Of a stretch of 64,000 nucleotides of DNA, positions 14,837-62,160 are shown one piece after another (within the stretch, counting starts at the first letter, position 1; the number at the start of each line of letters is the position of its first letter). The notes under the pieces are model-generated. The model was given only the letters and a program-made list of their open reading frames with translations. It did no database searches and had not been told where the DNA came from. Made by a program: the position numbers and the translations under genes. The DNA is taken from contig VENA01000058.1 in the NCBI GenBank assembly GCA_009711785.1, positions 1-64,000 of the forward strand, in the 5' to 3' direction. Source of the DNA: Bacillota bacterium (GTDB lineage: Bacteria; Bacillota; Clostridia; Tissierellales; MES13).

Positions 14837-15079
14837 TTAATTTATAACTTTATATAATTCTTGAGCTTTTTTCTTAGGTACGTGATCTGATATTTCTAAT
14901 ACTTCTACTTTCATATTACTGTTGCCAAAATTTATTTCAATTATATCTCCTACAAAGACATCTGTCCCTGGCTTAGACACCTTACCATTTATACTTACTC
15001 TTCCTTTTTCACAGGCTTCTTTAGCAACAGGACGTCTCTTTATGATTCTTGAATTTTTTAAAAACTTATCAATTCTCAT
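14837..15079 (-). CDS. rqcP: RqcP, S4-domain ribosome quality control factor (YabO)
   Basis: An 80-residue S4 RNA-binding protein: MRIDKFLKNSRIIKRRPVA opens the S4 fold and KGRVSINGKVSKPG continues it. In B. subtilis RqcP works with RqcH to add C-terminal alanine tails to nascent chains on obstructed 50S subunits. Older annotation calls this family Hsp15-like. It lies between hup and yabP, as yabO does in B. subtilis. It has its own terminator. Confidence 0.93.
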   Translation of the reverse strand: MRIDKFLKNSRIIKRRPVAKEACEKGRVSINGKVSKPGTDVFVGDIIEINFGNSNMKVEVLEISDHVPKKKAQELYKVIN

Positions 15080-15102
15080 ATTTATCCCCCTAATTCTAAT
15101 AT

Positions 15103-15132
15103 AAAAAAATCAGGTCCTAGACCTGATTTTTT
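15103..15132 (-). terminator. hup terminator
   Basis: Stem AAATCAGGTC/GACCTGATTT at 15107-15129 with T-runs on both sides. Confidence 0.88.
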
Positions 15133-15414
15133 TTATTTATTGTTTACTGTTTCTTTTAATGTTTTTCCAGCTTTAAATACTGGTGCTTTTGATGCTGGTA
15201 TCATTATTTTTTCTTCAGGATTTCTAGGATTTCTTCCTTCTCTAGCTTTTCTATGTCTTACTTCGAAAGTTCCGAATCCTACTAATTGTACCTTTTCTTC
15301 CTTTACTAATGATTCTTCAACACTTTTCATGAAACCATTTAATGCACTTTCTGCATCCTTTTTAGTTAATCCACTTTTTTCTGCTATACTTGCAACTAAT
15401 TCTGATTTGTTCAC
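15133..15414 (-). CDS. hup: DNA-binding protein HU
   Basis: Nucleoid protein of 93 residues that bends DNA as a dimer. The family is unmistakable: MNKSELVASIAEKSGLTKKD at the N terminus, GFGTFEVRHRKAREGRNPR for the DNA-binding arm and KAGKTLKETVN at the end. It lies between mazG and rqcP, a common position in Clostridia. The strong terminator and short separation from mazG suggest it may also have its own promoter, which I could not locate. Confidence 0.97.
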   Translation of the reverse strand: MNKSELVASIAEKSGLTKKDAESALNGFMKSVEESLVKEEKVQLVGFGTFEVRHRKAREGRNPRNPEEKIMIPASKAPVFKAGKTLKETVNNK

Positions 15415-15504
15415 AATAATTACCTCCTTGATATTTAAATAATTAAAAAGTATTACGTTATTAGCTAATTCTAGGTTTTTTTCTAAATTCCTTCTTTTAA
15501 AACA

Positions 15505-16989
15505 TTATTTTTCATCTTTTTTAATATTTTTATGTAGCTTTGCCACATTCCAAAGTTCATCCATTTCTTTTAGATTCATATCTTTAAGGTCTTTACCTAG
15601 TTCAATGCTTCTTTTTTCTATGAAACTAAATCTTTTGATAAACTTATCAATGGTCTTGTTTAGAGCTATTTCTGGATTGATATTTAAAAACCTACTTACA
15701 TTAACAATAGAAAATAATAAATCTCCTAGTTCCTCTTCTATATTTTCTTTGTCATCACCTCTGTATACTTCTTCAAATTCAGTTAACTCTTCTTTCACTT
15801 TTTCAAATGCATCTTTTATATCATTCCAATCAAAACCTACATTAGCAGCTTTTTTCTGTATTTTATAACTTCTGCTTAAAGTAGTCAAGCTTTTTGGTAT
15901 ATCTGTAAGTCTTTGTGTATAAGTTTTTATATCTTTTTCCTTATCTTTCATACTATCCCAATTTAAATTAGCCTCATCTACATCCTTAGCTACTAAATTA
16001 CTAAATACGTGGGGATGTCTATATATAAGCTTCTCACTTATCCTAGTAATAACATCATATATATTAAAGTACCCTTCTTCATTTGCTATAATACTATGGA
16101 ATACAACCTGTAGTAATAAATCACCTAATTCTTCAACTAAGTCATCAATATTACCATTATCTATTGCATCTACAACTTCATAGGCTTCTTCTAATACAAA
16201 TTCTCTTAAGGATTTATGGGTTTGTTTCATATCCCATGGACATCCGTCCTTATCCCTTAATCTTTCCATAATATTAACTAAATTATTCATATTATAACAA
16301 ATTCTTTTATCATTTGTCATTTTAGGTATATATATATATGTTACATGATTATACCCATCAATCCTATCTAGTTTATATATCGGAACCTTTATTACCTTTT
16401 CTTTCTCTTTAAAACCTGGTGAAATTATTATAAAGACTTCATAATCATCACCATAAACATCAGTTAACTGAATTTTTATTTCAGAGGCTATAAACTTATT
16501 ATAAACCTGGGATATAATATTATTACTATTGATATCGACTAATTCATTAGAGAAGTTTAGCCCATTTATAATTTTAGTACCATTAATAAGATCTTCTTTT
16601 AAAGCCTTTGAAATAGGTTCAATGAAACTTTGGCTTGAAACTATTTCAACTTCAAGGTCTTCTTTTGTATCTAACTTTAAAAGTTTATTAGTAATTTCAT
16701 CCCCAGATAAAGGATTACCTGGTACACAATAGTTAATGATATCATACTTCTTTGCTTTTTTCACTAGGTCACTAGTAATAAAGCTATAAACTTTATCGAA
16801 ACTATCTTCATCTTCATATACATAATCATATGAATTATATTCTATATTGTTTTCTTTTAAATACTTAACTACTGGATGCTTTTCAGTTCTTAGATATAAA
16901 TTTTCACCTTTTTTTAGTATTTCAAAAGCATCTACTGTCATCGAACCAATATCTCCAGGTCCTAGACCTACTATATTAATCTTTGACAT
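15505..16989 (-). CDS. mazG: MazG NTP pyrophosphohydrolase fused to a tetrapyrrole-methylase-like domain (YabN)
   Basis: House-cleaning nucleotide pyrophosphohydrolase of 494 residues. Residues 1 to about 220 form an SAM-dependent tetrapyrrole (corrin/porphyrin) methylase-like domain (VGLGPGDIGSMTVDAF, CVPGNPLSGDE). Two MazG modules follow, with DKDGCPWDMKQTHKSLREF, EELGDLLLQVVFHS and EEELGDLLFSIVNVSRF giving the Mg-binding EExxE/D pattern. This fusion is the normal YabN architecture in spore formers. Start ATG after GGAGGTG; 15 bases separate it from the upstream flippase gene. Confidence 0.94.
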   Translation of the reverse strand: MSKINIVGLGPGDIGSMTVDAFEILKKGENLYLRTEKHPVVKYLKENNIEYNSYDYVYEDEDSFDKVYSFITSDLVKKAKKYDIINYCVPGNPLSGDEITNKLLKLDTKEDLEVEIVSSQSFIEPISKALKEDLINGTKIINGLNFSNELVDINSNNIISQVYNKFIASEIKIQLTDVYGDDYEVFIIISPGFKEKEKVIKVPIYKLDRIDGYNHVTYIYIPKMTNDKRICYNMNNLVNIMERLRDKDGCPWDMKQTHKSLREFVLEEAYEVVDAIDNGNIDDLVEELGDLLLQVVFHSIIANEEGYFNIYDVITRISEKLIYRHPHVFSNLVAKDVDEANLNWDSMKDKEKDIKTYTQRLTDIPKSLTTLSRSYKIQKKAANVGFDWNDIKDAFEKVKEELTEFEEVYRGDDKENIEEELGDLLFSIVNVSRFLNINPEIALNKTIDKFIKRFSFIEKRSIELGKDLKDMNLKEMDELWNVAKLHKNIKKDEK

Positions 16990-45238: not shown

Positions 45239-46066
45239 CTAAATTATTTTCAAACTAATGTCTGAAGCCTTTACTGAATGGGTTATAGCTCCTGTGGATA
45301 TAACATGAACTCCTGTTTTTGCCATTTCATTGATATTTTCTAGGGTTATATTTCCTGATGTTTCTAGTATTTTTTCGTTATTTAGTTTAACAGCTAAAGC
45401 TATATCCTTATAATTCATATTATCAAGCATAATAATATCAACATCTGTTTTTATAGCCCTTTTAAACTTTTCTAAACTATCAACCTCTATCTCTATCTTT
45501 GTGGTATGGGGAATTTTATTTTTTATTTTACTTACTGCTTTTTCTATACCCCCTGAGGCTTTAATATGATTATCCTTTATCATTACTGCATCAGATAAAT
45601 TATATCTATGATTATATCCTCCCCCTACTTTAACTGAATATTTTTCTATAATTCTTAAATTTGGAGTTGTCTTTCTTGTATCAGTTATTTTTACATTTAA
45701 TCCTTTAACCCTTTGAACAAATTCATTAGTTTTAGTAGCAATACCTGACATCCTTTGTAAAAAATTAAGAGCTGTTCTTTCTGCTGAAAGTATTGCTTTA
45801 GTTTTCCCTGTAATTGTTAAAATAACATCCCCTTTATTAACTAAATCTCCATCTTTACACTTTTTATTAAAATTCATTTCATTATCTAAAAAACTAAAAG
45901 TTAATTCACATACTTCTAATCCACAAACGACCATTTTCTCCTTTGCTATGATTTTAGCTGTAGATATACTTTTTTCATCTATTAGGTTATCAGTTGTTAT
46001 ATCTCCATTATTCATATCCTCTAATAAGGCATTTTTAATTAACTGTTTTATAATATATCTATTCAA
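45239..46066 (-). CDS. nadC: nicotinate-nucleotide pyrophosphorylase (carboxylating)
   Basis: Converts quinolinate and PRPP to nicotinate mononucleotide. 275 residues. Motifs: LLEDMNNGDITTDNL, AERTALNFLQRMSGIAT, TRKTTPNLRIIEKYSVKVGG and LDNMNYKDI, ending ISTGAITHS. Start is probably TTG 46066, 8 bases after AGGTGG; GTG codons at 46078 and 46075 sit within that ribosome site. The site overlaps the TAG that would end nadB in its uninterrupted frame. Confidence 0.94.
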   Translation of the reverse strand: MNRYIIKQLIKNALLEDMNNGDITTDNLIDEKSISTAKIIAKEKMVVCGLEVCELTFSFLDNEMNFNKKCKDGDLVNKGDVILTITGKTKAILSAERTALNFLQRMSGIATKTNEFVQRVKGLNVKITDTRKTTPNLRIIEKYSVKVGGGYNHRYNLSDAVMIKDNHIKASGGIEKAVSKIKNKIPHTTKIEIEVDSLEKFKRAIKTDVDIIMLDNMNYKDIALAVKLNNEKILETSGNITLENINEMAKTGVHVISTGAITHSVKASDISLKII

Positions 46067-46078
46067 TTTTTTCACCAC

Positions 46079-46169
46079 CTACTTTTCAATATAATGACAT
46101 CCCAAACTTTCTTCCCTTTTTAAACAAGCTTTTATTATTAATTTACTTACAGTTGCCATATTTAAAGTT
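46079..46169 (-). pseudogene. nadB: frame-displaced 3' tail of nadB
   Basis: In the frame one base away from nadB this stretch reads ETLNMATVSKLIIKACLK and then, after a short gap, ESLGCHYIEK, ending in TAG at 46079-46081. This is the normal C-terminal helix of L-aspartate oxidase. Removing one T from the T8 tract at 46172-46179 (minus strand) joins it to nadB and gives 488 residues. It is the 3' part of nadB, not a separate gene. Confidence 0.85.
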
Positions 46170-47546
46170 TCAAAAAAAATCTTTACTATAAAAATGTTTA
46201 TTAAAATCATTTAAAATATCCTCTATCTTAACTTCAGCCTTTAATAAATCTTTTTTATTTCTAACTATCCCTACATCTTTATCCATAATACATTGTATTT
46301 TCTTTTTATAATGGGTAAAATCCCAATTATCTAAATTATAAGTTTCATCTAATATATACTTATCTTTATATGGATTATTGTTTATATTTTCAGCAATATT
46401 ATATCCAAAGGTTATACATTCTAATAAAGAGTTACTAGCTAATCTATTTGCACCATGAACACCTGTATTTGCACATTCTCCGCATGCATAGAGATTTTTA
46501 ATATTCGTTAAACCATTAAAATCTGTTTCTATTCCCCCTATAAAATAATGTTCAACTGCTATAACCGGTATATAATCATTACACATATCAAATCCATTTT
46601 CTAAGCACTTTTTGTATATATTAGGGAATCTCTTTTTAATAAAACTATTTTCTAAATGGGTTGCATCTAGATACACACATTCTTCATCATTATCTATAAG
46701 TTCTTTATATATGCCTCTTGCTACAATATCTCTTGGAGCTAATTCTCCTCTTTTGTGATATTTAAGCATAAAACGCTCATTAAATTTATTTTTTAAATAA
46801 GCACCTTCTCCCCTTACTGCTTCTGAAATTAAAAACTTTTTCCCCTTTTCTTTTGAGTAAAAGGCAGTGGGGTGAAACTGTATAAACTCCATATTTTTAA
46901 GATTGCAACCTGCTCTATAGGCTAAAGCAATACCATCCCCAGTAGATATGGAAGTATTAGTAGTATTTTTAAAAAGTCCCCCAATTCCTCCTGTAGCTAT
47001 AACTGTATGTTTTGATGTTATATTAAATACTTTTTTATTTAAAACCTTTGCACCTATACATATATTTTTATTTTTTATAAGATCAATAGCCATAGTATTA
47101 TCTAATACAGTTATATTACTTCTCTTTTTTACATTACTTATAAGAGTATCCATTATAACTTTTCCTGTAATATCTCCTCCTGCATGAAGGATTCTTCTAT
47201 TACTATGACCACCTTCCATAGTTGTTTTTAATTTCCCATTTTTATATTTATCAAAGAAAACACCAAATTCTATTAATTTATCTATCCTTTCTTTAGAGGT
47301 TTTAACCATCATATTTAAGGCTTGTAAATTATTAAACTTATTTCCTGCAATAAAGGTATCCTTTATATGACTTTTATAACTATCTTCTTTATCTATACAA
47401 GCTGCTATTCCTCCCTGGGCTAAACTTGAATTACATCTATATAAATCTCCTTTAGTAATTATAGTTATTTTTAAATCACTTTTTATATTAAGTGCTGTAT
47501 ATAAGCTTGCTAATCCTCCACCTATGATTAACACATCAGTATACAT
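46170..47546 (-). CDS. nadB: L-aspartate oxidase (frameshifted near the 3' end)
   Basis: FAD enzyme that oxidises aspartate to iminoaspartate, the first step of NAD synthesis. FAD fold VLIIGGGLASLYTALNI, substrate region GGHSNRRILHAGGDITG, AEHYFIGGI-type segment (VEHYFIGGIETDF) and ACGECANTGVHGANRLASNS. The in-frame product stops after 458 residues at TGA 46170-46172, immediately past a run of eight T's; about 30 family residues continue in another frame (46079-46169). It could be a real mutation, slippage, or a base-calling error. It starts 10 bases after nadA. Confidence 0.9.
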   Translation of the reverse strand: MYTDVLIIGGGLASLYTALNIKSDLKITIITKGDLYRCNSSLAQGGIAACIDKEDSYKSHIKDTFIAGNKFNNLQALNMMVKTSKERIDKLIEFGVFFDKYKNGKLKTTMEGGHSNRRILHAGGDITGKVIMDTLISNVKKRSNITVLDNTMAIDLIKNKNICIGAKVLNKKVFNITSKHTVIATGGIGGLFKNTTNTSISTGDGIALAYRAGCNLKNMEFIQFHPTAFYSKEKGKKFLISEAVRGEGAYLKNKFNERFMLKYHKRGELAPRDIVARGIYKELIDNDEECVYLDATHLENSFIKKRFPNIYKKCLENGFDMCNDYIPVIAVEHYFIGGIETDFNGLTNIKNLYACGECANTGVHGANRLASNSLLECITFGYNIAENINNNPYKDKYILDETYNLDNWDFTHYKKKIQCIMDKDVGIVRNKKDLLKAEVKIEDILNDFNKHFYSKDFF

Positions 47547-47556
47547 ACCCTCACCC

Positions 47557-48462
47557 CTATAAGCTTTTATTGAGCATATTTGTTAGTGATTTTAAAGCCT
47601 TTTTAGAAATTGAATTATCTACCTTAATTTCATATTCTTCATTTTCTAATGCATTTAATACATCTTTTAAAGTGATTTTTTTCATATCCTCACAAATTAA
47701 GTTATTATCTAGTAAAATAAATTCTTTATTAGGATTATCTTTTTTTAGTTTATATAATACGCCTTTTTCAGTTCCTATTATAAATTTTTTATTCTTAGAT
47801 TTATTAGCATAATTTATTATTTGGGAAGTACTACCTATAAAATCTGCTTCTTTTAATACATCATAATCACACTCAGGATGTACTAATAATAAAGCTAAAG
47901 GATGTTTGTTTTTCATCCTTTTTACATGACTTTTATTAACCCTTTCATGGGTCGGACAATATCCGTTATAGGTAATAACCTCTTTATTAGTTTGATTTTT
48001 TACATAATTACCTAAATTCTTATCTGGTACAAATAAAATTTTCTTTGCATCTAAACTATTGACTATTTTTACTGCATTAGAACTTGTAACACATATATCA
48101 CTTTCAGCTTTAACCTCCATGGATGAATTAACATAACAAACTATTTTACTGTCAGGATTATTTCTTTTATACTCTTTTAATTTTTCAGCCTTTATCATAT
48201 CCGCCATAGGGCATAATGCATTTTTTACAGGTAATAATATCTTTTTATCTGGAGAAAGTATTTTAGCACTTTCTGCCATAAATTTAACTCCACAAAATAT
48301 AATAATATTTTCACCTACATTGGCAATCTCTCTACTTAATGCTAAAGAATCCCCTATAATATCTGCTACCTTCTGAATCTCTGGAAGTTGATAGTTATGG
48401 GCTATAACTAATGCGTTTTTCTTTCTTTTTAAATGATTTATTTTATTTATTATACTCTCCAT
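47557..48462 (-). CDS. nadA: quinolinate synthase
   Basis: [4Fe-4S] enzyme condensing iminoaspartate with dihydroxyacetone phosphate to quinolinate. About 301 residues. ALVIAHNYQLPEIQKVADI opens the protein; likely cluster cysteines lie in NALCPMADM, GYCPTHERV and HPECDYDV-type contexts. Start ATG 48462 follows GAAAGGAGAT; the open frame runs 21 codons further without such a site. First gene of nadA-nadB-nadC, behind a strong promoter overlapped by a NiaR-like dyad. Confidence 0.94.
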   Translation of the reverse strand: MESIINKINHLKRKKNALVIAHNYQLPEIQKVADIIGDSLALSREIANVGENIIIFCGVKFMAESAKILSPDKKILLPVKNALCPMADMIKAEKLKEYKRNNPDSKIVCYVNSSMEVKAESDICVTSSNAVKIVNSLDAKKILFVPDKNLGNYVKNQTNKEVITYNGYCPTHERVNKSHVKRMKNKHPLALLLVHPECDYDVLKEADFIGSTSQIINYANKSKNKKFIIGTEKGVLYKLKKDNPNKEFILLDNNLICEDMKKITLKDVLNALENEEYEIKVDNSISKKALKSLTNMLNKSL

Positions 48463-48487
48463 ATTTATCTCCTTTCTCATTGTATAT

Positions 48488-61930: not shown

Positions 61931-61950
61931 TATAAAAAACTATATTAAAC

Positions 61951-62160
61951 TATGAAAGAGATAGTAGCAATTTTTAGTTTTTACAGAGAGCAGACTGGTT
62001 GGTGAAAAGTTTGTAGCTAAAAATCAAGCGAATTACACTCTGGAGTTTCAATGTGAAAGCATTGCGATTATCACACGTTACAGTGATTCAAGGCATCTAT
62101 AGATGCAAATTAAGGTGGTACCACGGGTCTTCTCGTCCTTAGACGAGAAAGGCCCTTTTT
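61951..62160 (+). ncRNA. T-box riboswitch (tyrosine specifier)
   Basis: A transcription-attenuation leader sensing uncharged tRNA-Tyr. It contains the stem I GAAAGAGATAGTAGC-type start, a specifier codon TAC at 62034-62036 followed by A, and the conserved T-box AAGGTGGTACCACG (62112-62125), then a terminator. The T-box bases GGTGG pair with the tRNA acceptor end region when uncharged. It controls the tyrS gene immediately downstream. Confidence 0.93.
62125..62160 (+). terminator. T-box-controlled terminator of tyrS leader
   Basis: GGGTC-TTCTCGT / ACGAGAA-GGCCC stem ending in a T-run at 62156-62160; alternative pairing with the T-box sequence would form the antiterminator. Confidence 0.9.

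Follow-up and report, generated by a model that had tools for sequence, protein, structure and literature searches.

The genes of the de novo NAD pathway lie on the minus strand of the window (the whole 64,000 nt stretch of DNA that was analyzed) in the order nadA-nadB-nadC. Features of this region are listed below, with some of them defined by comparison with a congener, genome G001.

47557–48465, minus strand: nadA, quinolinate synthase, 302 aa, intact (TIGR00550, 355.6 bits; cut-off 262.9)
46170–47546, minus strand: nadB, L-aspartate oxidase, 458 aa, ending in TGA at 46172–46170 (ORF and NadB profile scores)
46172–46179, minus strand: T8 tract, with one T more than the congener reading frame, which has TTTTTAT (congener comparison)
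46079–46171, minus strand: out-of-frame nadB tail of 30 codons plus TAG, coding for the third helix of the C-terminal bundle (congener alignment without further indel; helix from the congener model)
46072–46080, minus strand: nadC ribosome-binding site AGGTGG, which shares bases with the ancestral nadB stop (sequence; same in the congener)
45239–46066, minus strand: nadC, quinolinate phosphoribosyltransferase, intact (TIGR00078, 339.4 bits; cut-off 198.4)
After nadC, minus strand: glucose-6-phosphate-isomerase-like ORF (named from a reading of its translation)

The 3' end of nadB reads ...AGT AAA GAT TTT TTT TGA AAC... on the minus strand, the eighth T of the run being the first base of the stop codon, and the gene as assembled specifies 458 aa. 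With one T fewer the frame extends for another 30 codons (ETLNMATVSKLIIKACLKREESLGCHYIEK) to a TAG at 46081–46079, the AG of which forms the beginning of the nadC ribosome site. An earlier note on this DNA had placed the nadB stop just after the T8 run and had followed the seven-T frame on to 46079 at the nadC ribosome site; the sequence confirms the first point exactly, and the second with an extension of 30 residues. nadC starts with TTG (46064–46066) in the window, as against ATG in the congener. No riboswitch or other known RNA was found at the nad operon when the window was searched with Rfam, and the sole match above the gathering score anywhere in the window was a T-box leader at 61943–62143 (plus strand).

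The congener and the accuracy of the T8 tract

Sixty genomes of relatives were searched, among which G001 is the only other member of the genus. It is syntenic with the window over nearly its entire length (~95% DNA identity) and reads GAT TTT TAT GAA ACC at the corresponding site, with an intact NadB of 488 residues. At this site its sequence is shared by VEND01000126.1, a contig of a Bacillota metagenome-assembled genome (L004/L033). Window and congener differ here by one A/T substitution and one extra T; codon 458 is TAT in the congener and TTT in the window, which leaves the T run of the window unbroken. Outgroups carry residues other than Phe or Tyr at codon 458 and so do not polarise this substitution. 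The nadB-nadC junction, including the ribosome site, is identical in the two genomes. An ancestral nadB that was intact and abutted nadC, as had been proposed in the earlier note, is the arrangement seen in the congener, and the alignment with a close relative that the note had suggested reveals a gene whose frame stays open across this tail and ends at the same TAG. Elsewhere in the window, a stretch of 875 bp (15053–15927) lacks any difference from the congener against a background divergence of ~4.5%; within it lie a 100-aa plus-strand ORF and a portion of a MazG/TP_methylase gene, and it may stem either from recent exchange between the two species or from an assembly piece that both genomes share.

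The draft assembly comprises 87 contigs and is 88% complete. Its accuracy at homopolymers (A/T tracts of at least six, G/C tracts of at least five) was assessed in the window and in a further 54.5 kb sample. Within the 36 window genes compared with the congener, an indel was present in 1 of 209 tracts, that of nadB alone. The 54.5 kb sample added 219 coding tracts, none with a gene-breaking indel, and its frame-changing indels fell at the edges of genes or within self-compensating clusters, ORF lengths being nearly equal. About 20 other A8/T8 runs occur within genes on the contig, all in open frames. An assembly artefact would be expected to produce an excess of homopolymer indels; no such excess was observed. 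Systematic homopolymer error is unlikely and was rejected, as the 428 coding tracts held no other gene-breaking indel. An isolated error is a separate matter: a consensus error, or a consensus drawn from mixed strains, would mean that seven T's are the true or majority state and that nadB is intact. In a draft assembly a single such error in 64 kb would suffice, and the undecayed tail would fit with it, as would the intact look of everything apart from this base. Set against this are the other eight-base runs in open frames and the 428 tracts just described, and we regard such an error as somewhat unlikely.

Age of the lesion and possible bypass of the stop codon

The view that the tail is undecayed was upheld. 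Its 30 codons align with those of the congener without further indel and show five synonymous changes to one replacement (P = 0.001 under no constraint), and at the replaced site the window retains the commoner His, found in most close relatives, where the congener has Tyr. No further lesion of the kind expected of a decaying pseudogene was found in nadB. In nadB the window branch has 7 polarised amino acid changes and the congener branch 10, and the dN/dS of the gene is 0.18 (median 0.10). It follows from the undecayed tail and these branch counts that the lesion is recent, or that the tail is still used, or that the extra T is an error, while long-standing decay of nadB was rejected on the same evidence.

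Continued use of the tail would mean that some full-length NadB is produced, either by RNA polymerase slippage on U8 or by a +1 ribosomal shift on UUU-UGA, with both lengths being made and the tail remaining under selection. The slippery run directly precedes the stop, the tail is well preserved, and the bypass of runs of 3–8 bases has been shown experimentally (PMC3812077). Transcriptional slippage has been documented for the frameshifted tssM gene of C. rodentium, with its A11 tract (PMC4256274), and proposed for several frameshifted genes of endosymbionts (PMC3017870). In Buchnera and Blochmannia genes, tssM and Shigella mxiE, as in nadB, an A/T-run indel breaks the frame and the downstream frame is undecayed. 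However, the tssM tract is longer and its expression has been demonstrated, whereas the eight T's of nadB are not conserved and would require a change of -1 or +2 to restore the frame. Slippage during transcription of A/T runs mostly inserts bases (PMC5574713), and eight T's are at or below the length where slippage is usually selected against, such selection usually being visible at nine-base runs in many genomes (PMC1088944). The run itself is interrupted in the congener (TTTTTAT), which has one open frame.

On the ribosome, UUU-UGA is in principle able to shift +1, as happens at the release-factor-2 site. The resemblance of nadB to the shifty stop of prfB (CUU UGA) ends there, as it has no ribosome-site-like stimulator just upstream (by inspection), no conservation and no autoregulatory logic, and no notable RNA structure is predicted (fold z-score -0.16). 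Programmed frameshifting would be recognized by a slippery site and both frames being conserved, which was not the case in the one congener compared, and by a stimulatory structure or upstream stimulator, neither of which was seen in the fold score or by inspection. A conserved recoding site was accordingly rejected, the congener run being broken and RNA structure lacking. Leaky production of full-length NadB is, on balance, quite unlikely, and it is very improbable that T8 is retained in the species as a leaky switch by which one gene yields NadB both with the last C-terminal helix and lacking it, thereby tuning aspartate oxidase and nadC coupling. Of the three causes that had been offered for the T8 run, a recent mutation fits best, systematic sequencing error is disfavoured, and programmed slippage lacks comparative support.

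Niacin salvage and the de novo pathway

A PRK08662-type nicotinate phosphoribosyltransferase (L116) and a 3H-domain repressor resembling NiaR (L118) are encoded in the genome, and niacin salvage is therefore likely, as judged from these predicted genes. Where salvage suffices, the nadB lesion could represent the first step in pseudogenization of the de novo pathway. The presence of the two genes would fit with this, as would the TTG start of nadC and the slightly raised replacement to synonymous ratios of nadB (p = 0.04) and nadC (p = 0.016), although both p-values are uncorrected and fail after testing 36 genes. The same salvage gene and repressor are also present in the congener, in which nadB is intact; moreover, nadA and nadC of the window are intact, nadB is otherwise open, and the window branch is not accelerated. 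Pseudogenization is thus considered unlikely. The nadC value derives from 10 replacements to 6 synonymous changes, and the synonymous divergence of this gene is 0.036, compared with a typical 0.1–0.25.

The shortened enzyme and short NadB proteins of related bacteria

The NadB protein as assembled has a complete PF00890 domain (residues 4–374), and scores 504.6 bits with TIGR00551 (cut-off 452.75) and 487.9 with NF004820 (cut-off 472), the NCBIfam L-aspartate oxidase model of 433 positions. PF02910 is found in the congener NadB and is absent from the window protein. The C-terminal bundle in the congener model consists of helices at residues 410–424, 431–447 and 455–476, of which the window protein has the first two, and the core of the truncated product is modeled as in the 488-aa congener (pLDDT of 85.8 for the window protein and 87.4 for the congener). 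The tail aligns with the C terminus of E. coli NadB (1CHU), and within it E459, N462, S480 and G482 are nearly invariant among 19 relatives. Given its conservation in the nearest relatives, loss of the tail may harm the enzyme. Compared with L-aspartate oxidase NadB (TIGR00551; 1CHU), the window protein is similar in its complete core and active-site part, its place in a nadA-nadB-nadC operon and its score above the equivalog cut-off, but differs in lacking the last helix and the S-x-G-x-H end, and in PF02910 being undetected. The full C-terminal helical domain and S-x-G-x-H end that define long-form NadB are not found in the protein, the tail being present out of frame only. Literature searches on the structural role of the NadB C-terminal domain and on nadB frameshift pseudogenes returned nothing directly on point.

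Five genomes of the same order (L017–L021) encode NadB proteins of 420–439 aa that lack the entire C-terminal bundle, each gene lying behind nadA and running into nadC where the contig continues. Because these proteins occur in nadABC operons, the bundle is probably dispensable in these related lineages, as inferred from operon context. The window protein is like these short forms (NF004820/PRK06175) in total length, in its incomplete C-terminal domain and in its operon. They differ in that the whole bundle is absent by descent, their endings are distinct and no out-of-frame remnant is present, whereas the window NadB retains the first two helices and its congener is long and intact; such a remnant of two helices cannot be equated with clean absence of the bundle. 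The earlier statement that a conserved C terminus has been removed holds for the last helix, which is conserved in close relatives, while a need for the lost part is unsupported, in view of the 420–439 aa proteins and the two NadB cut-offs that are passed.

The reading we favor, with a probability of about 0.62, is that nadB has undergone a recent one-T insertion by replication slippage, and that the shortened enzyme is probably tolerated. Ordinary slippage of DNA replication in the T run would have added the base, giving an L-aspartate oxidase of 458 residues in which the FAD/catalytic core is complete and the last helix and S-x-G-x-H end are missing. The nadB stop would now lie ~100 bases before the nadC start, with the old close coupling lost and the nadC ribosome site retained. 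We infer that the mutation is real as well as recent, and that either the short protein retains some activity or salvage covers its loss. Standard annotation pipelines would accept this shortened ORF as an ordinary NadB, because the cut-offs are passed, and would miss the lost helix. Beyond annotation the lesion probably has little meaning, but the domain-less NadB proteins of related nadABC operons offer an easy way of testing whether L-aspartate oxidase needs its C-terminal bundle for activity. In three of these genomes (L019–L021), nadC is followed by an ORF resembling a 3H-domain repressor.
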